Positions 10,491 to 21,666 of a DNA stretch of 42,736 nt are shown piece after piece. Position numbers and translations under genes: made by a program. Origin of the DNA: a virus. The notes below the pieces were generated by a model that had not been told where the DNA came from, did not search any database, and was given only the letters and a program-made list of their open reading frames with translations. Numbering within the stretch: position 1 is the stretch's first letter; every line of letters starts with the position of its first letter. The stretch is taken from positions 1-42,736 of IMG/VR virus record IMGVR_UViG_3300032087_003052; one strand, 5' to 3'.

Positions 10491-10519
10491 TTGACAACAG
10501 GGTATTGCTTCATTATAAT
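10491..10519 (+). promoter_or_regulatory. Consensus sigma-70 early promoter
   Basis: TTGACA (10491-10496), exactly 17 bp, TATAAT (10514-10519): a perfect match to the bacterial housekeeping promoter. It points into the rightward operon, whose first gene starts at 10633. Two copies of the palindrome (10546 and 10600) lie in the first transcribed 100 nt. Recognition by host RNA polymerase fits the lack of a phage polymerase gene. Confidence 0.88.
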
Positions 10520-11854: not shown

Positions 11855-12298
11855 ATGGCAGATGAAAAAGCAAACAAAGTCCGAGTGTTCGTGTACGGTA
11901 CACTCAAAGATGGACACGGCAACCACGGCTATTACTTGGCAGGAAACCCTGCGGTCAGTAAGCTGGGGCGCTGTTACATCTCTGGCGATTACCGTATGTA
12001 TTCTAACGGTGCTTTCCCTATGGTTACTCGCGGCTCCGATCAGGATCGCGTGTCGCATATTGTCGGGGAGGTGTACGAGATAGACGAGCATACGCTCGAC
12101 TCGCTCGACGCACTTGAGGGGCATCCTGACTGGTACTGCCGTGAGAAGGTAGAGACTCCGTTCAAGAAGGCATGGGTGTACCTCATGCCCGAGGACGGGC
12201 GGTTCGCATCCGACTCACTGGTGAAGTCCGGTTGTTTTGCAATGACTGAGGAGGAGGCAGAGTGGATCAATGGCAGCGAAATCAAAGCAGCCGTATAA
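11855..12298 (+). CDS. Gamma-glutamylcyclotransferase-like protein (AIG2/GGCT family)
   Basis: 147 aa. VFVYGTLKDGHGNHGYYL at residues 10-27 is the YGTL substrate-loop signature of the GGCT/AIG2 fold, and GEVYEI (about 70-75) followed by DALEGHPDWYCRE carries the conserved Glu and the DxxEG..Y pattern. Family members release 5-oxoproline from gamma-glutamyl peptides or amines; in amidoligase clusters they are thought to trim or reverse gamma-glutamyl links. Start ATG at 11855 with GAGG upstream. It is the first recognisable enzyme of the peptide-ligase-like block ending at 18331, and overlaps the next gene by 29 nt. Confidence 0.85.
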   Translation: MADEKANKVRVFVYGTLKDGHGNHGYYLAGNPAVSKLGRCYISGDYRMYSNGAFPMVTRGSDQDRVSHIVGEVYEIDEHTLDSLDALEGHPDWYCREKVETPFKKAWVYLMPEDGRFASDSLVKSGCFAMTEEEAEWINGSEIKAAV

Positions 12299-12611
12299 CT
12301 ACGTCGCTCATATTCAGCGTGAAGGCAGGGTCACTGAGCTTGCTGGTACGCGGGAGGATTATTCGATGAAGAAGGTCTACCAGTTCTTGCTTGAGCTAGC
12401 TACCGAGATGGGTGGCTGGCTCCTGGCAGAGCAGATCACTGACGCTGACGATAATCAATCCCGTTGTACGTACAACGAGAAAGAGATTGAACCTATCGCT
12501 GAGGATGAGGTCAAAGATGAGGGAATCACACTGGGCGCAGATGGTGTGTGGAACTCTTACACAAAGAGGTATGCTGGGGCGCAACGGCTTACCTTCAAGG
12601 AAGGATCATGA
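12270..12611 (+). CDS. Hypothetical protein with in-frame palindrome
   Basis: 113 aa, with a helical middle (KKVYQFLLELATEMGGWLL) and acidic C-terminal half. Residues 65-70 (RCTYN region) are encoded by a copy of the dispersed palindrome at 12462-12477, between the helical and acidic parts. It overlaps both neighbours (29 nt and 4 nt). Position ties it to the ligase block. No family is recognised. Confidence 0.58.
   Translation: MAAKSKQPYNYVAHIQREGRVTELAGTREDYSMKKVYQFLLELATEMGGWLLAEQITDADDNQSRCTYNEKEIEPIAEDEVKDEGITLGADGVWNSYTKRYAGAQRLTFKEGS
12462..12477. promoter_or_regulatory. Dispersed palindrome, site 9 (intragenic)
   Basis: A perfect CGTTGTACGTACAACG core with AATC on the left, inside the 113-aa gene, read in frame as RCTYN. 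Confidence 0.72.
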
Positions 12612-13567
12612 AAAGTTATGAGCAATTCATACCGCTAGTATCGTACAGGTACGCACCAAGCGGGGATCGTTGGCAGATCAATGAGGAGCGCAAGGTAGAG
12701 ACGCGCTCCCGTCATTGGGGCATGGCGTATTGGGAAGATGCGGCGGGCAGGCATAGTGCCGAGTTCGGTGTCATTACCGAGTCCATGCCTGACTTCTGCG
12801 GAGGACTGATGGTCTACTCTCCGTTCGTCAATACCTATGACGAGAAGGGTAGCTGGTCTGACTCGTGGTGTAATCCGGGCACGATGCCCAACAACGAGGA
12901 GTTCAATACTAAGTGGTCAACATTCGATGACAGCTTGGCAATTAACCTCAACACCATACTTGAGTGGGACAAGGATACCGTCAGCATCAGGCGAGTGGTC
13001 GAGGACTACTTGTGGAAGTGCATAGCTGCACAGGTAGCAGGTGAACTCCTGCACCACGGCAAGCGTGGTTGGATGGGTGCGGATCACACTAGCGGACGTA
13101 TAACCAAGCTCGCTAAGGTGATGCGCGGCATGGGCACATTCGTTGCAACCCCGGTGCATGACTGGAAGATAGACAAGATAGGCGACCCTATCTCTACGTC
13201 TACGCGGGACTCAACCAATGCCTCTGTTGTGGGGTGGTGGTGTGAAGATGGTACGGAGTGGCACAACTCAAACTCTGGGAATACAGTACGCTGGGTATCT
13301 GGCGGGCTGCAGCCCACCGAGGATGAGGGACTGATCCGCGATGATAGCGGGTACGTCAGGTGTTCTTCGTGTGATGAGGAGTACAGCAGGGAGTATCACA
13401 GTGACTGTCCGTCGTGTTGCTGTGACGAGTTCTACAACGACGATTACTACGACGAGGATGAAGGCCCTAGATTCCTGAGCGGGGACTTTAACTATACGCA
13501 GGAAGTCAGGAAGATCAACACCGAGTTCGCGCATAGGGCGCGGCGATTCTTTTGGAGGAACGGATAG
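12608..13567 (+). CDS. Hypothetical protein with C-terminal zinc-ribbon-like Cys cluster
   Basis: 319 aa from the ATG at 12608, preceded by AAGGAAGG. The first 230 residues have no recognised motif but look folded. Near residues 255-275 there are CSSC and CPSCCC knuckles, a likely zinc ribbon, followed by an Asp/Tyr/Glu run (about 275-287). It lies between GGCT and the first amidoligase in the same interlocked unit, ending one base before the next ATG. It could be a substrate, carrier or scaffold of the ligase pathway; that is inference. Confidence 0.65.
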   Translation: MKSYEQFIPLVSYRYAPSGDRWQINEERKVETRSRHWGMAYWEDAAGRHSAEFGVITESMPDFCGGLMVYSPFVNTYDEKGSWSDSWCNPGTMPNNEEFNTKWSTFDDSLAINLNTILEWDKDTVSIRRVVEDYLWKCIAAQVAGELLHHGKRGWMGADHTSGRITKLAKVMRGMGTFVATPVHDWKIDKIGDPISTSTRDSTNASVVGWWCEDGTEWHNSNSGNTVRWVSGGLQPTEDEGLIRDDSGYVRCSSCDEEYSREYHSDCPSCCCDEFYNDDYYDEDEGPRFLSGDFNYTQEVRKINTEFAHRARRFFWRNG

Positions 13568-14398
13568 ATGATCACACTAGGTACAGACCCTGAGCTGTTT
13601 CTCAGGGACACACGGACGGGTGGGGTGTACTCAGCCGTAGGTCTGATCGGTGGCACAAAGGACAAGCCTATTCCTATGGAGGGCATGGCCGAGGGCTTCG
13701 CGATTCAGGAGGACAACGTGATGGTGGAGTTCAACATACCACACGCCAGTAGTGGGCAGAGGTTTGCCCGGCGGGTGCGTGAAGGACTGCTGCATATCAA
13801 TCACGTTGTACGTACAACGGGATTGCCTCTCGATCTTGATATCGGAGCGTGTGCCCGGCTGTTCACTCACGAACAGTTGAACAACAGACAGGCTCAGATG
13901 TTCGGGTGCAGCCCCGACTTCAACGCCCATCAGCAGGGGCAGCCATGCCCTCCCATCAAGCCAGAGGCATTGGTCGAGGAGGCAGGGGCGTGGCGCTTCA
14001 GCGGAGGACACGTACACCTAGGCTATGAGTCGGCAGCGCCCGACTTCGTGGCCGCAGCGTTGGCCGACGTGTTCCTCGGACTACCATCAGTGTCGCTCGA
14101 CCAGCAGGGCGTGCGGCGCAGCCTCTACGGACAGGCGGGAAGGTATCGGCCTACTCCCTACGGTATTGAGTACCGTAGCTTGTCCAACTTCTGGATCTGG
14201 GATGAACAACTGTCCCGCCAGATAGGGGATCGAGCCTACACGTTGGGCACATATCTCGAAGGGGATGCGGCTGAGTTGCAGCGCATCTACGCAGAGATAC
14301 CGTGGCACGATGTGCAGGATGCCATTAACACGGAGAATGAGGAGAAGGCAGCAGACCTCCTCACGTACCTCCGTACTGACCTGAACTTGGAGGTGTAA
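13568..14398 (+). CDS. COOH-NH2 ligase type 2 (amidoligase, glutamine synthetase-like fold)
   Basis: 276 aa. LGTDPELFL at residues 4-12 is the first metal-binding strand (D.E) of the COOH-NH2 ligase type 2 family. NVMVEFNIPHA (about 49-59) and FSGGHVHLGY (about 143-152) give the further Glu and His ligands, and GIEYRSLSNFW (about 198-208) the ATP-contacting Arg. Such enzymes join a carboxyl to an amine with ATP through an acyl-phosphate. Residues 79-84 (HVVRTT) are encoded by a copy of the dispersed palindrome. The gene directly abuts the one before it and is followed, 4 nt later, by an unknown partner. Confidence 0.85.
   Translation: MITLGTDPELFLRDTRTGGVYSAVGLIGGTKDKPIPMEGMAEGFAIQEDNVMVEFNIPHASSGQRFARRVREGLLHINHVVRTTGLPLDLDIGACARLFTHEQLNNRQAQMFGCSPDFNAHQQGQPCPPIKPEALVEEAGAWRFSGGHVHLGYESAAPDFVAAALADVFLGLPSVSLDQQGVRRSLYGQAGRYRPTPYGIEYRSLSNFWIWDEQLSRQIGDRAYTLGTYLEGDAAELQRIYAEIPWHDVQDAINTENEEKAADLLTYLRTDLNLEV
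13804..13819. promoter_or_regulatory. Dispersed palindrome, site 10 (intragenic)
   Basis: A perfect CGTTGTACGTACAACG core with AATCA left and GGATT right flanks, inside the COOH-NH2 ligase gene and read as HVVRTT. Confidence 0.74.
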
Positions 14399-14402
14399 TA
14401 CA

Positions 14403-15044
14403 ATGCCTTGCATACCACCAGAAGTCACGCCGATGGACGTATGGCAATGGCTCGGACGCGGTTGGTTCTTCTATGACAGAGACGGGACAAAGGTTCCGGC
14501 TACCATAGAACAGATCGACCGTCACGACTATGCCGTACGCACTGTAGACGGTGACGAGTATGCGTTCTCACGGGACAGGTGCTATCCGCACTGGCCTGAT
14601 TGTGGGGCGGTGAATCTACAGGGGTTCGCCGTTATAGTGGAGCGACAGCAGGCACGCCAGTACCGTCGGACATACAACGATCGTTGTCTGTCGCTCAACA
14701 TACCCCGCAAGTGGGACGTGATGAAACGTCACGCATACGTAGTGAATCTAACGCCAGCCTCGGCTGAGGTAGTGGAGTCAGTATTCAATCCTGAGTACTA
14801 CTCATACGACAAGGCGCTAGAGCTATTGGATACAGGATGGGTGAGCGTAGCCCTGAACCAGTATCTTGTGATAGCAGGTGAGAGTAACGAGCAACTCATC
14901 TATTACAGGGGCAAGCTACTCGCCCGTGTGAATGATGGAGTGCTTGAGCCTCTTGATCTTAAGAACCCGAGGAACTTACGCATCCTCAAATGGTTTAACG
15001 GGAGAGTACGATATGCCAACAACGATATCAGATGTAGTGCATAA
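14403..15044 (+). CDS. Hypothetical protein of the ligase block
   Basis: 213 aa, no recognised family. The N-terminal 60 residues (DVWQWLGRGWFFYDRDGTKV and following strands) resemble a small beta-barrel; the remainder is mixed. It sits between two amidoligases, overlapping the second by 32 nt, so it probably works with them. An imperfect inverted half-site (14674-14687) lies within it. It could be a substrate-binding partner. Confidence 0.65.
   Translation: MPCIPPEVTPMDVWQWLGRGWFFYDRDGTKVPATIEQIDRHDYAVRTVDGDEYAFSRDRCYPHWPDCGAVNLQGFAVIVERQQARQYRRTYNDRCLSLNIPRKWDVMKRHAYVVNLTPASAEVVESVFNPEYYSYDKALELLDTGWVSVALNQYLVIAGESNEQLIYYRGKLLARVNDGVLEPLDLKNPRNLRILKWFNGRVRYANNDIRCSA
14674..14687. other. 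Inverted half-sites ACAACGATCGTTGT
   Basis: A perfect 14-bp palindrome made of the same arms as the dispersed palindrome but in the opposite order (ACAACG then CGTTGT). It is intragenic, encoding part of a TYND motif. It may be a rearranged copy or chance. Confidence 0.35.
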
Positions 15045-15981
15045 CGCACATGGCATCGACGTTGACACCCTGCACTTCGGCATTGAGATCGAGGTAGAGA
15101 ACGCACGTCAGCCTCGCGATCTGGAGGCTAGCCTGTGGACTACGGTACACGACGGTAGCCTACGTGATGGTGGCTGTGAGTTCCTATCTCAGCGACCTAT
15201 GACAAAGGCAGAGGTGGAGGAACAGGTGCCGTGGTTCTACCGCTGGTTCGATCAGCATAGCTTTACGAACGGGATACGTACCAGTACTCACGTTCATGCG
15301 AATGTGATGGGCAAGACAGGGCCGCAGGTAGCTGCGATCTGTACGCTGTACACATTGGTCGAGCCGCTACTGTTCCGCTACTGCGGGCCAGTGCGTGAGC
15401 AGAACATCTACTGCGTACCGTGGTACAGGGCGACGGATGAGTTAGAGTACGTCAAGTATATTGCGGAGGGTAGCTGGTCTTACCTGCATAACCCCTGCAA
15501 ATACAGTGCCTTATACCTTGAGCCACTCATGAGATTCGGAACTCTAGAATTTAGAATGGCTCCGGTGTTTGACAACGCAGGTGCGCTGCTCACATGGGTA
15601 GATATCATTGAGCGTGTGGTCGAGAATGGTTTCGAGACTAGCGAGGAAGTTCTCGCTGCGTTCAGGGAACTACCGTCGGATGAATTTGTCGAAGGAATAT
15701 TCGGTGAACAGTTGGCAGGTGTCCTGCGGGGTGCGTGTCAAGCTGACTTCGATGAGTTGTTCGAGCAGTATGATGTGGAAACAAACGCCGAACTTTCTTG
15801 TTGTACGTACAACGAGAATGCGGTGGTCAATGGATGGTTTACTCCATCCTTTACAACGGAGGGTACGGGAACGACGGGCTATCACCGAGAGGTGAGGCGC
15901 CCACGAATGAGGATTGAACCAGACTATGAGCCGGACTATGATCCGGGTGAAGAATACTATGATGATGAGGAGGATTACTAG
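15013..15981 (+). CDS. Amidoligase (Amidoligase_2-type, glutamine synthetase-like fold)
   Basis: 322 aa from the ATG at 15013, with GGAGAG upstream. FGIEIEVE near residues 21-28 is the metal-binding Glu strand of the Amidoligase_2 family; DGGCEFLSQRP (about 54-64), THVHANV (about 92-98) and TLEFRMAP (about 177-184) give the remaining Glu, His and Arg residues. It should form ATP-dependent amide bonds. The C-terminal 20 residues are nearly all Asp, Glu, Tyr and Pro. Residues 263-268 (CCTYNE) are encoded by a copy of the dispersed palindrome, beyond the catalytic core. Two distinct amidoligases in one operon suggest two linked coupling steps. Confidence 0.85.
   Translation: MPTTISDVVHNAHGIDVDTLHFGIEIEVENARQPRDLEASLWTTVHDGSLRDGGCEFLSQRPMTKAEVEEQVPWFYRWFDQHSFTNGIRTSTHVHANVMGKTGPQVAAICTLYTLVEPLLFRYCGPVREQNIYCVPWYRATDELEYVKYIAEGSWSYLHNPCKYSALYLEPLMRFGTLEFRMAPVFDNAGALLTWVDIIERVVENGFETSEEVLAAFRELPSDEFVEGIFGEQLAGVLRGACQADFDELFEQYDVETNAELSCCTYNENAVVNGWFTPSFTTEGTGTTGYHREVRRPRMRIEPDYEPDYDPGEEYYDDEEDY
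15799..15814. promoter_or_regulatory. Dispersed palindrome, site 11 (intragenic)
   Basis: TGTTGTACGTACAACG: one arm base differs from the 16-bp core; the inner 14 bp are perfect. It is inside the second amidoligase gene, read as CCTYNE. Confidence 0.7.
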
Positions 15982-17499
15982 ATGTGTGGAATTGTAGGTT
16001 TCATAACTAACGCAACCAAAGTAAGTGAGATGGATCGGAGCAGGTTCTTGAAGCAGGCTCTTATCATCGACACCTTACGAGGTGATGACAGTACGGGTGT
16101 ATTCGGGGTAGGACATGAGCCTATGTTCGACGACGGATCAGCGTACTGGTTCAAACAGCTAGGAGGCGGCGAGGCTTTCACTGATACCAAAGAGTATTGG
16201 GAGAACTTCGTAGATGTCTCAAACTACAGGTGTGTGGTCGGGCACAATCGTGCCGCTACTATCGGCGGGGTTACTGCTGATACAGCGCATCCCTTCCAAG
16301 AAGGGCCGATCACATTGGTACATAACGGGACGCTGACCAGCACACACGGTATGCCTAACCCAATGGCAGGTCTGCCTGATGTAGAGGTGGACAGTCATGC
16401 TATCTGCCACAACCTAGCCCTCCACTCGGTGGATGAGGTGGTGTCTACACTACATGGTGCGTTCGCACTGGTATGGCATGATGCCCGTGACGACAGCGTG
16501 AACATCGTGCGCAACTCGAAGCGGCCATTGCACTTCGGGATGAATAAGCAGGGCAACACCCTGTACTTCATGTCCGAGGGCGAGATGCTGTCCCTGTTGG
16601 ACACTCGCATCAGGCTGGGCATCAGCAGTATCTACTACCCGTCGGAGGGACAGTACCTCAAGTGGCTGTCTAATACCCCGTTGGATCGCCCGATCACACG
16701 GGAGCTAGACCTGTATGAGGATACATGGTACACGACGTACAACACCAACAGGTACGGTGGGTACGGCGGTGCGTACAACACAGGGTATGGTGCTGATGGG
16801 TACAGCGGCTACGATTGGGACGAGGAGGACGACGACGATCCTCTGGGAAAACAGCTAGCCCACAACGAGAAAGACGATTGGATATTCGTAGGTGGGCGGA
16901 AGAAAGAGGTTCCTATGCTGATACAAGAAGGGCTTTTATCGCACGACGTAGTGGTCGAGGACAGGTGGGAGTTCACACCGAGTCAGTTGGGGATGAACCC
17001 GCAGGACACGGACAGAATGTACGTGCACGGGGAGATACACGGTCTGGGGAAGGGAGTAATATACTCTATCTCCCCGGGAACCGCGAACCAGACTGGGACT
17101 GGTAGTTGCTGGACGGTACGCATCATCGGGATGAAGTTGGACACTAACGGGGAGCCGTGGTTTATCTGTCGGCTGGTGTCTACCTTCGTCAATCCTAAAA
17201 CAATATCCAATCACGTTGTACGTACAACGCAAAAGGATGATGAGGATACTCCGGTAGATGCGGGCGTACCATTCGACGATGAGATACCATTCGGCAAGAG
17301 TGCCATTGCGTACGATGCAGTGCCCGGGCCGGGAGGTATCCTGTTAAATGAGCATGACTTCTACCGGGAGGTAGCAGATGGGTGTGTGATGTGCACCAAG
17401 CCTATCAGCATACGTGACTCATATGATTTGATATGGACTGGTGAGGGTGCGATCTGTCCTAACTGTGACGATCGCTTGTATGAATCAATCGAGAAATAA
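15982..17499 (+). CDS. Class II glutamine amidotransferase with C-terminal zinc ribbon
   Basis: 505 aa. MCGIVGF gives the N-terminal nucleophile Cys (position 2) of Ntn-type glutaminases. RGDDSTGVFG (about 34-43), VVGHNRAATIGG (about 85-96) and VHNGTL (about 114-119) are the conserved glutamine-binding and oxyanion motifs. It should release ammonia from glutamine for an amide-forming partner. Residues 252-287 are a Tyr/Gly/Asn segment ending in an acidic run. Residues 411-416 (HVVRTT) come from the dispersed palindrome and lie in a polar linker before a C-terminal CVMC...CPNC ribbon. It abuts the amidoligase stop exactly. No synthase domain is fused, so the ammonia acceptor is one of the neighbouring ligases (inference). 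Confidence 0.88.
   Translation: MCGIVGFITNATKVSEMDRSRFLKQALIIDTLRGDDSTGVFGVGHEPMFDDGSAYWFKQLGGGEAFTDTKEYWENFVDVSNYRCVVGHNRAATIGGVTADTAHPFQEGPITLVHNGTLTSTHGMPNPMAGLPDVEVDSHAICHNLALHSVDEVVSTLHGAFALVWHDARDDSVNIVRNSKRPLHFGMNKQGNTLYFMSEGEMLSLLDTRIRLGISSIYYPSEGQYLKWLSNTPLDRPITRELDLYEDTWYTTYNTNRYGGYGGAYNTGYGADGYSGYDWDEEDDDDPLGKQLAHNEKDDWIFVGGRKKEVPMLIQEGLLSHDVVVEDRWEFTPSQLGMNPQDTDRMYVHGEIHGLGKGVIYSISPGTANQTGTGSCWTVRIIGMKLDTNGEPWFICRLVSTFVNPKTISNHVVRTTQKDDEDTPVDAGVPFDDEIPFGKSAIAYDAVPGPGGILLNEHDFYREVADGCVMCTKPISIRDSYDLIWTGEGAICPNCDDRLYESIEK
17214..17229. promoter_or_regulatory. Dispersed palindrome, site 12 (intragenic)
   Basis: A perfect CGTTGTACGTACAACG core with AATCA left and CAAAA right flanks, inside the glutamine amidotransferase gene, read as HVVRTT. 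Confidence 0.74.
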
Positions 17500-17500
17500 T

Positions 17501-18331
17501 ATGACTAGACTATTCGTTAGACCACCCCGACGTGCGAGCCAATCGGCACGGGACATTGCGTTCCGTACCGGGGCACGCCTGATCCGACGCAACAACAGTC
17601 GGTACAGGTTCCGCACTGGAGACAGGGTGATAAACTGGGGCAACCCAGCACCAATAGATGTGCCAAACTATGCGGTGTACAACCACCCCGCAGCAGTAGC
17701 ACTGGCTATTGATAAGTCGAGGACGTGGGACTGCTTGCAGTTGCATGGTGTACCCACGGTAGACGTGACGTACAATTGGGGAGACGCACGGCACTGGCTG
17801 CACGAGGGTCAGCGAGTGATGGTGCGTACTGCGCTACAGTCGTCACAGGGCAGAGGGATAACCGTCTACTCAGAATACGGGACGGAACACACCCTGCCTT
17901 CGGGTAACTACGAGGCTGCGTACCATGACGGTGCGGCCTACGTCCTTGTGTTTGGACGCAACCCCGCTCATGTGACCGAGTATCGTGTCGCAGTATGTGG
18001 CGGGCAAGTCATTGATTGTTCACAGAAAAAGAGGAGAAGGGACTATGAGGGAAGGATTGATCCGTATATTAGAAGCTACGGGAACGGTTGGATCTTTGCG
18101 AGGGAGGGCGTCGAGTGCCCAGAAAGCGGGGCTATCGCGGCCATCGACGCTGTCGAAGCGCTTGAACTTGACTTCGGCGCAGTCGATATCGGAGTGCACA
18201 GACATGGACATGCCTGTGTCTACGAGGTTAACACCGCTCCCGGGATCGAGGGCACCAGTCATGAACGATGGGCCGAGGCCCTCGCTTCACTCACTGCTCC
18301 ACGAGAGACTGGACATACTGACGTTATTTGA
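17501..18331 (+). CDS. ATP-grasp ligase
   Basis: 276 aa from the ATG at 17501, 1 nt after the previous stop. VMVRTALQSSQGRGI (about 107-121) resembles the phosphate-binding lid of ATP-grasp enzymes. DIGVHRHGHACVYEVNTAPG (about 229-248) carries the metal-binding Asp, Glu and Asn (EVNTAPG) of the catalytic end. These enzymes couple a carboxylate to an amine or thiol through acyl-phosphate. Phage-type members of this shape occur beside amidoligases. It ends the ligase block and overlaps the next small gene by 71 nt. Confidence 0.82.
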   Translation: MTRLFVRPPRRASQSARDIAFRTGARLIRRNNSRYRFRTGDRVINWGNPAPIDVPNYAVYNHPAAVALAIDKSRTWDCLQLHGVPTVDVTYNWGDARHWLHEGQRVMVRTALQSSQGRGITVYSEYGTEHTLPSGNYEAAYHDGAAYVLVFGRNPAHVTEYRVAVCGGQVIDCSQKKRRRDYEGRIDPYIRSYGNGWIFAREGVECPESGAIAAIDAVEALELDFGAVDIGVHRHGHACVYEVNTAPGIEGTSHERWAEALASLTAPRETGHTDVI

Positions 18332-18392
18332 TGTGCAGGAGATCCAGAGCGAGATGTTCGATGAACAAACGGAGGAGGATAGAGATGAGTAA
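18261..18392 (+). CDS. Small acidic hypothetical protein
   Basis: 43 aa, Asp/Glu-rich helical protein from the ATG at 18261, with GAGGG 9 nt upstream. It overlaps the ATP-grasp gene by 71 nt in another frame and the next gene by 8 nt. Overlaps of both ends with supported genes favour a real gene, but it is short and without homologues known to me. Confidence 0.45.
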   Translation: MNDGPRPSLHSLLHERLDILTLFDVQEIQSEMFDEQTEEDRDE

Positions 18393-18579
18393 ACCAGAAG
18401 AAGGGCAAGTGGTTGAGATTAACGCAGACCCTACAGGTATAGCGTTCGTGCCAATCAAGGCAAAGGTAGCGGCGGTGTTGAGCGTACAGTTCACGGCGCA
18501 CTACATGGACGGAACAGATACACTGACGTATCAGTTCTACAACGATGAAGGTGGAACATGGAGGCATACAGATGGGTAG
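18385..18579 (+). CDS. Small hypothetical protein, beta-rich
   Basis: 64 aa from the ATG at 18385, preceded by GGAGGAGG. Alternating hydrophobic residues suggest a small beta-domain. It overlaps both neighbours by 8 nt. No family recognised. Confidence 0.58.
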   Translation: MSKPEEGQVVEINADPTGIAFVPIKAKVAAVLSVQFTAHYMDGTDTLTYQFYNDEGGTWRHTDG

Positions 18580-18721
18580 AAAATACAAGGACGATCTGGA
18601 GATCAGAGAGGAAGAACTGGAACTTAAGGAACTGCGGGACATTACAGGCGACGAGCTACACGAGGCGTTGCGTTGCGTCCCCAATTGGGATGAACTAGAA
18701 GAGGGGTACGATTATGACTAG
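18572..18721 (+). CDS. Small acidic helical hypothetical protein
   Basis: 49 aa, with a Glu/Leu-rich helix (residues 8-35). The ATG at 18572 and TAG at 18721 overlap both neighbours by 8 nt, a pattern shared with the genes around it. It directly precedes the sigma factor; an anti-sigma or adaptor role is conceivable but has no sequence support. Confidence 0.55.
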   Translation: MGRKYKDDLEIREEELELKELRDITGDELHEALRCVPNWDELEEGYDYD

Positions 18722-19481
18722 ACAAGAAATGTGGGAACGTGCATACAAGAGTGATCGCAATGCGGTACGGAAGATGCTGCTCAAGTACGAGGATGACTAC
18801 GATCTGGTAGACGACCTCACGCAAGATACCTATATACGGGCGCTTGAGCATCTCGACCAATGGGACGAGGAGGCTACCTTCCTTACGTGGTTGGTGACCA
18901 TCGCTGAGAACATAGCGAAGGATCATGTGCGTAAGCAGACAGCGGAGAAGCGTGCCAACGAGGTACTGTCCAACTCCATCACGCCAGCATATGCCAGCGA
19001 GGAGGACGAGGATGCAGGGCACGCCATACCGTGGCATGACCGCACCGACTTGAGCCGAGAGCTGGCCCATGAGTGCGCCATGCAAGATCCGTACTATGCG
19101 TACGAGGCCGAGCAATCTGCGGAGTATGCGTTCGCCAAGCTCCCGGGTGCAGCGAGGCAACCAATGCGGCTGCGGGCTGAGGGTTTCACCAACCCTGAGA
19201 TCGCAGAAATGCTAGGGTTATCAGTTAGTTACGTAGAGAATCTCATATCTCGTGCAAGAAAGTTGCTTGCCGATGGTGAGAATCGGGAAGCTATTACGTC
19301 TAATAGCGTATACAGCGAGCGAAAGCAGCGACCCGTGGAGCGGTTCGCAACGCAAGCGGAGCTAGAGCGAGCTGTTGCACGGCGCTTTGCACGAAGGAAT
19401 TTCGCCTTCGTTGCGCGCCAAGCACGGATGCGTAATCCTGATGCAACACTAGCTGAATGGAAGGAGACGTACGATGTTTAA
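18714..19481 (+). CDS. ECF-type RNA polymerase sigma factor
   Basis: 255 aa. Region 2 spans about residues 8-75: YDLVDDLTQDTYIRALEHLD is the core-binding helix, and ATFLTWLVTIAENIAKDHVRK the -10-binding helix. Region 4 spans about 140-190, where FTNPEIAEMLGLSVSYVENL is the -35-binding helix-turn-helix followed by SRARKLL. An acidic linker separates them, and a basic 60-residue C-terminal extension is unusual for ECF factors. Start ATG at 18714 with GAGGGG upstream. No RNA polymerase gene is seen in the genome, so this factor probably directs host polymerase to middle or late promoters (inference). It is the only transcription factor clearly recognised here. Confidence 0.85.
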   Translation: MTRQEMWERAYKSDRNAVRKMLLKYEDDYDLVDDLTQDTYIRALEHLDQWDEEATFLTWLVTIAENIAKDHVRKQTAEKRANEVLSNSITPAYASEEDEDAGHAIPWHDRTDLSRELAHECAMQDPYYAYEAEQSAEYAFAKLPGAARQPMRLRAEGFTNPEIAEMLGLSVSYVENLISRARKLLADGENREAITSNSVYSERKQRPVERFATQAELERAVARRFARRNFAFVARQARMRNPDATLAEWKETYDV

Positions 19482-20465: not shown

Positions 20466-21666
20466 ACGTAATCTGTTGGCATCATTTATAGCCAGCCGTG
20501 AAGCGTTCGATACTGTAGTAGACCATCTAAAGAAGGGAGACATTAGTGATCAAGGTGACATTATCCTGTCCGCTGTGCGGGAATACTATGACCGAGACAG
20601 TGAGTGCAAAACGATTGACTCTGATCTGCTGCGAGCAGACGTGGAGCGACGTGTCAGTAATCCCAAGCACAAAGAAATGTTTGGGAAGCTCATCGACACA
20701 ATCGTGGGTGAGGAAGTTTCGCCAGCCAATGTCGTACATGACTTCATCGCAGTCAAGCGGGAAGGGGCGGGAGCTAAGTTGGCGACTGCCCTCGCTGCTG
20801 GCAGGGATGCTAGTACTGTGCGCCCTTTATTGGATGAGTACGTAGAGTGGGACGTAGCAACGGAACTGGAAGCGGAGGACGACGAGATACTGAACGGGGT
20901 GACAGCCACGGATCTCACGACCTCTATCAACGAGGACGGGCTTATCGAGATTTGGCCGACCTCACTAAACTCGCGACTGGATGGAGGGTTACTCCGAGGA
21001 CACCACATGCTGATATTCGCACGACCAGAAATGGGGAAGACTATGATGGTAGTGAATATGCTTGCGGGATTCTGCGCACAAGGACTGCGCACCCTGTACA
21101 TAGGGAACGAGGAACCGATATCGGATACGATGTTGAGAGTACAGTCACGACTAACGGGATGGACGAAGGCGGAGATCATTGATGATCCTGACTTCGCAGA
21201 CCAGATACTAGAGGAGGCAGGGTACGACCTGATCTATTTCAAAGAGGCAGCGCCGGGTACACCGAAGATGATTCAGCGGTGGATGGATGCAGTAAAGCCT
21301 GATGTACTTGTGATAGACCAGCTACGTAACCTGAATGTGAATGAGGAACACTTCGTGCAAAAGCTGGAGAAGGCGGCCACTGCGGCTCGTAATCTTGGGA
21401 AGTCTAACAACGCCCTTGTGGTATCCATTACGCAGGCTGGCGACAGTGCTAGCGGAAAGGCAGTACTGGACATGGGTGACGTGGATTCATCGAACACTGG
21501 CATACCTGCTCAGGTGGACGTTATGGTTGGGCTGGGGGCTACGGCTGACGATGAGGCAAGCCTCCGACGTGTCATTTCGCTGCCAAAGAATAAGCGAAGC
21601 GGTAGACATGAGTTTTTCCCTGTTAGAATCGAACCGCAGATCAGTAACATAAGGAGTCTGCAATGA
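20458..21666 (+). CDS. Replicative DNA helicase (DnaB-like)
   Basis: 402 aa. The N-terminal 150 residues resemble the DnaB helical domain. The RecA-type core has Walker A ARPEMGKT (about 190-197) and Walker B VLVIDQLRN (about 282-290), followed by SITQAGDS (sensor) and a C-terminal NKRSGRHEFFPVRIE, the arginine-finger-like end of the DnaB family. It would unwind the fork as a hexamer, working with the neighbouring primase and polymerase. It overlaps the polymerase start (ATGA). Confidence 0.9.
   Translation: MSERNLLASFIASREAFDTVVDHLKKGDISDQGDIILSAVREYYDRDSECKTIDSDLLRADVERRVSNPKHKEMFGKLIDTIVGEEVSPANVVHDFIAVKREGAGAKLATALAAGRDASTVRPLLDEYVEWDVATELEAEDDEILNGVTATDLTTSINEDGLIEIWPTSLNSRLDGGLLRGHHMLIFARPEMGKTMMVVNMLAGFCAQGLRTLYIGNEEPISDTMLRVQSRLTGWTKAEIIDDPDFADQILEEAGYDLIYFKEAAPGTPKMIQRWMDAVKPDVLVIDQLRNLNVNEEHFVQKLEKAATAARNLGKSNNALVVSITQAGDSASGKAVLDMGDVDSSNTGIPAQVDVMVGLGATADDEASLRRVISLPKNKRSGRHEFFPVRIEPQISNIRSLQ

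Follow-up and report, generated by a model that had tools for sequence, protein, structure and literature searches.

A divergent copy of the phage amidoligase module, its conserved sixth partner and a proposed gamma-glutamyl chemistry

The virus contig analysed here, IMG/VR record IMGVR_UViG_3300032087_003052 (positions 1 to 42,736, referred to throughout as the window), carries a 91-bp direct terminal repeat at its ends and is therefore probably a complete genome. Its genes lie in two convergent arms and, on the strand opposite to the structural genes, eight open reading frames (ORFs) follow one another head to tail between 11855 and 18331, occupying 6.5 kb or about 15% of the genome, with overlaps of 29, 4 and 32 nt and otherwise gaps of 0-4 nt (Table 1). 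This block is a new divergent copy of a gene set already known from phages. It encodes five enzymes, namely a GGCT-like cyclotransferase, a COOH-NH2 ligase, a second amidoligase, a class II glutamine amidotransferase (GATase, the glutaminase of the set) and a RimK-like ATP-grasp ligase, together with proteins of 113, 319 and 213 aa, the last of which is, by synteny and profile comparison, a conserved sixth partner that was previously overlooked. The ORF sizes and spacing given in the original prediction, which was made from the sequence alone, are reproduced here with the start codons of the second amidoligase and the ATP-grasp gene corrected. The block does not close at 18331, as an 82-aa ORF overlaps the ATP-grasp stop codon and ORFs continue beyond it.

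All five enzyme assignments hold, four by Pfam scores above the cut-off, the ATP-grasp marginally, and the second amidoligase by PHROGs. The GGCT protein matches PF06094 (6.6e-23, 82 against a cut-off of 22.8 bits) and phrog_2520 (5.8e-24) and keeps G15 and the invariant, catalytic-type E88. The COOH-NH2 ligase matches PF14395 at 7.9e-8 (32.3 against a gathering cut-off of 25 bits) and belongs to a family in which 23 columns are invariant across 70 sequences, with acidic, His and Arg residues among them. The class II GATase matches PF13522 at 3.1e-15 (56.8 against 27 bits), begins with MCGIVG, in which C2 after the Met is the nucleophile, and has R90, N115, G116 and D137. Its C-terminal ~300 aa, conserved across phages and including four near-invariant cysteines (C468, C471, C492 and C495 in the window), match no known synthase partner domain, and its scores against the GlmS, PurF and AsnB equivalogs of NCBIfam are far below the cut-offs and come essentially from the N-terminal domain alone. 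The ATP-grasp ligase just passes PF18299 (R2K_2; 7.1e-6, 26.4 against 26.2 bits) and matches phrog_2599 at 1.7e-57. In the PDB, the profile of its family finds RimK-type L-glutamate ligases (E ~4e-10), and the window protein scores 29.4 against a cut-off of 143.4 bits for the RimK subfamily TIGR00768; by sequence, it appears only distantly homologous to RimK. The conserved K/R/ExR/D/ExN residues are kept, with an invariant K73 upstream and R110 in the RAGNYA region, and the fit to the published R2K_2 definition, two conserved RAGNYA lysines without the linker lysine (PMC4431377), is not clear-cut. Despite a score below the PF12224 cut-off (15.2 against 22 bits), the second amidoligase is filed with the phage amidoligases on the strength of phrog_7469 ('amidoligase enzyme', 1.6e-36), and it keeps E26/E28/E30, D48, R52, E57, H94, H96, R129, E180 and R182 (numbered from codon 15010). 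The two ligases are not claimed to be paralogues, as a profile-profile comparison was not significant (probability 3). Across 9-70 relatives, the residues that are invariant or nearly so are kept in all five window enzymes; neither mutated catalytic residues nor profile matches to other families, which the original prediction had named as observations that would tell against it, were found.

Table 1. Features of the block and its surroundings in the window.
Feature	Position	Strand	Evidence
Predicted sigma-70 promoter, TTGACA-17-TATAAT	10491-10519	+	12/12 consensus match
GGCT/GGACT-like gamma-glutamyl(amine) cyclotransferase, 147 aa	11855-12298	+	PF06094, phrog_2520
113-aa protein of no known family	12270-12611	+	ORF; phmmer match to L017 alone
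319-aa protein of no known family	12608-13567	+	Window-clade family directly upstream of COOH-NH2 ligase
COOH-NH2 ligase, 276 aa	13568-14398	+	PF14395; model with glutamine synthetase/GCS/PafA-Dop fold
213-aa conserved module protein	14403-15044	+	hhalign to syntenic ORFs; AlphaFold model
Second amidoligase (PF12224-like), 322 aa, ATG at 15013	15013-15981	+	phrog_7469
Class II glutamine amidotransferase (Ntn, N-terminal nucleophile), 505 aa	15982-17499	+	PF13522, Cys2 nucleophile
ATP-grasp ligase, RimK-like, 276 aa, ATG at 17501	17501-18331	+	phrog_2599, PF18299
82-aa ORF, ATG at 18331 overlapping ATP-grasp stop	18331-18579	+	ORF
ECF-like sigma factor	18714-19481	+	PF04542 9.1e-15, PF08281 4.9e-11
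GTTGTACGTACAAC exact copies	9144, 10063, 10209, 12463, 13805, 15800, 17215, 19878, 28138	no strand	Exact match
GTTGTACGTACAAC inside 113-aa ORF	12463-12476	no strand	Further block-gene copies at 13805, 15800, 17215

Sequence searches of the PDB with profiles of the ligase, the amidoligase and the 213-aa protein gave no useful match. The AlphaFold model of the COOH-NH2 ligase (predicted local distance difference test, pLDDT, 97.1; predicted template modelling score, pTM, 0.93) was compared with solved structures by Foldseek and VIA, which returned glutamine synthetase (GS), YbdK, GCL and Dop/PafA at Z 11-13.8 over 176-235 residues. The match to Dop reaches Z 13.8 (3.2 Å over 215 residues, 11% identity) and that to YbdK Z 13.4, and on this model the ligase has the glutamine synthetase/GCS/YbdK/PafA-Dop fold. 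Characterised members of this fold activate mainly the gamma-carboxylate of glutamate.

A profile of the ligase searched against viral contigs gave at least 577 confirmed relatives, from which 80 loci were kept, and the same search of 84,980 prokaryote genomes gave 14 loci, all on contigs of metagenome-assembled genomes (MAGs); the module is rare in prokaryote genomes. At least one of these 14 contigs (L104) carries a divergent RNA polymerase gene that clearly marks it as phage-like, and another (L110) lies in bacterial surroundings. When the viral contigs were scanned with single proteins, the ATP-grasp gave no relative and the amidoligase a single locus, and a query with an alignment worked. 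In uncut loci, which extend 8.5 kb or more to either side, the ligase, amidoligase, glutaminase and ATP-grasp are all present (30/30), and wherever the core is complete its genes lie on a single strand (82/82 non-duplicate loci). The order ligase, 213-aa protein, amidoligase, glutaminase, ATP-grasp is found in 54 of these 82 loci and an arrangement without the 213-aa protein in 18. Protein identity between the window enzymes and annotated phages is ~13-38%, a megablast search with the block found no close phage, and among 309 records that carry the ATP-grasp the most frequent annotated hosts are Gram-negative genera. Two side observations arose from the survey. In the viral-like MAG contigs L104 (4439-15924) and L102 the ligase is accompanied by Peptidase_C26 and GGCT, and no amidoligase, glutaminase or ATP-grasp was detected in the available stretch, possibly a reduced module. 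Over most of the module region, the record of 'Poriferisphaera phage ZRK32' (L011, OP650935) shares 80-95% DNA identity with Pseudomonas phage SCYZ1 (L010), which is unexpected for a planctomycete phage and may make the host assignment worth a check.

The three proteins that the original prediction had left as unknown differ in their distribution. The 213-aa protein matches the profile of a syntenic ORF from 13 phages with an hhalign probability of 95.2 (E 2.5e-8), while ten shuffled controls stayed under 1% and other module families at 2% or less. Given that tblastn with the 213-aa protein, as with the 319-aa protein, found nothing in phage records, the family is seen only through synteny and profile comparison; it occurs in 76 loci, encoded between the two ligases. 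Its AlphaFold model, built from 54 sequences (pLDDT 92.8, pTM 0.88), consists of a Tudor/SH3-like barrel of ~65 N-terminal residues followed by a C-terminal alpha/beta part, and has ten significant matches among the viral structures of BFVD, including the syntenic proteins of CW02 and Vp_R1. Foldseek gave no match to the model at E ≤ 0.001; the best VIA score, Z 7.5, is to Tudor-like barrels over residues ~1-65, possibly a common arrangement, and beyond the barrel there is no clear match in the PDB. The 213-aa protein is probably a binding or scaffold partner. The 319-aa protein has an FCGG motif, CxxC pairs and an acidic stretch near the C-terminus; its family is limited to the clade of the window (L017-L028), and other lineages have non-homologous ORFs in the place before the ligase. 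The 113-aa protein has a match in the closest relative, L017 (phmmer 1.5e-27), and nowhere else among the loci. The ~70-aa ORFs that adjoin the ATP-grasp in other phages were considered as peptide substrates and dropped, as by eye they look like two or more small families unrelated to each other, and no obvious one is present in the window.

Many relatives that lack GGCT carry a Peptidase_C26 (PF07722) protein. The NCBIfam models nearest to it, all with scores under the cut-off, include those for gamma-Glu-GABA hydrolase and gamma-glutamyl-CDP-amidate hydrolase. Where the 213-aa protein is present, GGCT occurs alone in 26 loci, C26 alone in 38, both in two and neither in three. On the ligase tree, 81 of 85 loci have GGCT and/or C26, and the four that have neither (L058, L062, L079, L106) end 0.1-2.2 kb upstream of the ligase; these genes often lie upstream of the ligase, and in 94 of 100 cases no more than 2 kb separates them from the core. 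The simplest reading of these gene contents is that removal of a gamma-glutamyl group would be a required step of the module.

The intact block thus belongs, as a divergent member, to the known phage amidoligase module, and it is suggested, with a probability of about 0.55, that the chemistry shared by the module is the addition and removal of gamma-glutamyl amides. The COOH-NH2 ligase and/or the second amidoligase would spend ATP on activating a side-chain carboxylate of the glutamate type and couple it to an amine. The RimK-like ATP-grasp would attach one more amino acid to a carboxylate, the class II glutaminase would free ammonia or glutamate from glutamine, and GGCT, or in many related phages the C26 gamma-glutamyl hydrolase, would take the gamma-glutamyl group off again; the substrates and the order of the steps are inferred. 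Small molecules are the main substrates of characterised GGCT and C26 enzymes, and for this reason we lean slightly towards a small gamma-glutamylated intermediate, perhaps then built into a host cell-wall precursor. As far as the sequence data go, a cell-wall precursor, a small metabolite and a protein would all be compatible targets.

Several points weigh against this proposal. The GGCT and C26 labels are strongly clustered on the ligase tree, and a test for their exchange in independent pairs found three supported pairs, which is not significant in an underpowered test, so that an exchange of the two among lineages is suggested by their distribution, short of proof. Furthermore, plain glutamine is also a substrate of C26-like enzymes and of class II GATases, and C26 could therefore be a second glutaminase. 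The fold evidence comes from a model of one of the two ligases, the COOH-NH2 ligase, and as the Z scores of its Dop, YbdK and GS matches differ by no more than ~2, the acceptor cannot be read from the fold. Finally, a literature search found no biochemistry for any member of the module and no functional test of the module as a whole, in agreement with the statement in the original prediction that no function has been worked out.

The proposal has to be set against rival ones. In the published view of phages PSA-HP1, CW02, RIO-1 and the LUZ24-like group (PMC5498523, PMC11945000), the enzymes would rebuild the peptide stem of cytosolic wall precursors and thereby bring about superinfection exclusion or prepare lysis. 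This modification of peptidoglycan shares the gamma-glutamyl chemistry suggested above and adds a target to it; it is a possibility that we hold with less than even confidence. The predominantly Gram-negative hosts suit it, as does the lack by eye of an evident export signal, which is expected of precursor enzymes, whereas the block has no wall-specific domain, six or more genes are in our judgement a large outlay for superinfection exclusion, and the literature search found no experiment on it. It is somewhat more doubtful that a glutamate or short peptide is put on a host or phage protein, such as the ribosome, RNA polymerase or a translation factor, for takeover of the cell. The ATP-grasp resembles RimK, the glutamylator of ribosomal protein S6, the ligase model matches the Pup ligase and deligase PafA and Dop at Z 12.7-13.8, and phage R2K ATP-grasps have been proposed as modifiers of host proteins (PMC4431377; PMC7824862). 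However, YbdK and small-molecule ligases score equally well on the same model and no Pup-like substrate was identified in the block. The small-molecule bias of characterised GGCT and C26 enzymes also counts against protein tagging.

A more elaborate version of the proposal, which we regard as unlikely, is that the module is a virus-specific pathway for a diffusible, gamma-glutamyl-protected compound that GGCT or C26 would release to act on the host or its defences, with the 213-aa Tudor-like protein as an obligatory carrier or scaffold between the ligases in most lineages. An auxiliary role in nitrogen or amino-acid metabolism, raising the supply of glutamate and glutamine or of glutathione in the infected cell, has been proposed for the ZRK32 phage, which has the same genes (PMC10945688). 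It is improbable here: by their NCBIfam scores, absent or far under the cut-offs, none of the enzymes is an orthologue of GS, GlmS or GshB, the GATase C-terminus matches no known synthase partner, and two unusual ligases so constantly linked to a glutaminase suit a dedicated product better than bulk supply. Least probable is a modification of phage DNA through amide-linked side chains. Hypermodifications that bear amino acids or amines do occur in other phages and the block adjoins replication genes, yet no thymidylate/hydroxymethylase, base kinase, glycosyltransferase or similar DNA-hypermodification enzyme was found among the window proteins scanned, and this reading was set aside as unsupported.

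Hundreds of phages that infect Pseudomonas, E. coli, Vibrio or other Gram-negatives carry the gene set. Its core consists of two amidoligases, an ATP-grasp, a glutaminase and a gamma-glutamyl remover, joined in most lineages by the 213-aa protein, and the specific chemistry now proposed for it can be tested directly. If the product were a modified cell-wall precursor or an anti-host metabolite, this would explain a large investment that many lytic podoviruses share.

Around the block, the predicted sigma-70 promoter lies ~1.3 kb upstream. Past 18331 come the 82-aa ORF, which has no relatives among the compared loci, small ORFs, the ECF-like sigma factor and then the DNA primase gene; DNA polymerase and helicase genes also lie downstream within the window. 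Early expression of the block, as assumed in the original prediction, is supported, as a prediction, by this promoter, the replication genes downstream and the structural genes on the opposite strand. A sigma factor downstream of the module is also annotated in the Zobellviridae phages CW02 and O4. Two ORFs of the window match DNA polymerase families, at 26681-27442 an exonuclease-subunit family (phrog_403) and at 21663-23519 a full polymerase family (phrog_17), which recalls phages with split polymerases. None of the eight block proteins matched the anti-phage defence models of PADLOC at E ≤ 0.01. The window also contains nine exact copies of a 14-bp perfect palindrome, GTTGTACGTACAAC, between 9144 and 28151, many of them inside genes, and with up to three mismatches there are 17 matches against 1.3 expected. 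Such palindrome repeats occur in 8 of ~100 loci, seven of them in the clade of the window, and the close relatives L017, L018, L021, L023, L025 and L026 have repeated palindromes of their own, often with another half-site (e.g. CTTAGTACGTACTAAG, TGTCATACGTATGACA and CCTTAACATGTTAAGG). The palindromes look like operators of a fast-evolving dimeric phage regulator.

The comparative-genomics background given in the original prediction, in which amidoligases are partnered by ATP-grasp and GGCT proteins, holds; what it missed is that the set has been widely published, with a cell-wall and superinfection hypothesis attached. For PSA-HP1 and its relatives these genes have been presented as a 'peptidoglycan modification cassette' (PMC5498523); they recur as that cassette in the LUZ24-like phage U17 (PMC11945000) and appear as gene lists in UFV-P2 (PMC3890496) and TC6 (PMC6209634), the cell-wall and superinfection idea being credited to Iyer et al. 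2009 as quoted in PMC10580990. In PSA-HP1, RIO-1, phiEco32, 7-11, PA11, tf, LUZ24, PaP3 and CW02, as in the window, the five enzymes lie on one strand in the non-structural arm, and ORF20-29 of UFV-P2 have the same order as the window, from a ~287-aa protein through COOH-NH2_lig, a 186-aa protein, Amidoligase_2 and GATase to ATP-grasp (PMC3890496). The window differs in that GGCT comes first and not last and in that the upstream 319-aa and 113-aa proteins belong to its own clade. Added here are the definition of the module, its 213-aa component and the argument for gamma-glutamyl removal. With PafA/Dop the COOH-NH2 ligase has the fold in common, and it differs by its 11% identity, by the tie with YbdK and by a block in which no Pup-like protein was identified; the RimK enzymes are the closest solved relatives of the ATP-grasp by profile, and the window protein is far under their NCBIfam cut-off. 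EgtA/EgtC, PuuA/PuuD and BtrJ/BtrG are pathways that add and remove a gamma-glutamyl group on defined small molecules. The likeness lies in the pairing of an ATP-dependent gamma-glutamyl ligase with a remover that is class II GATase-like, C26 class I GATase-like or GGCT-like, and the viral module differs from these pathways in joining two GS-like ligases with an ATP-grasp, a glutaminase and the 213-aa protein.

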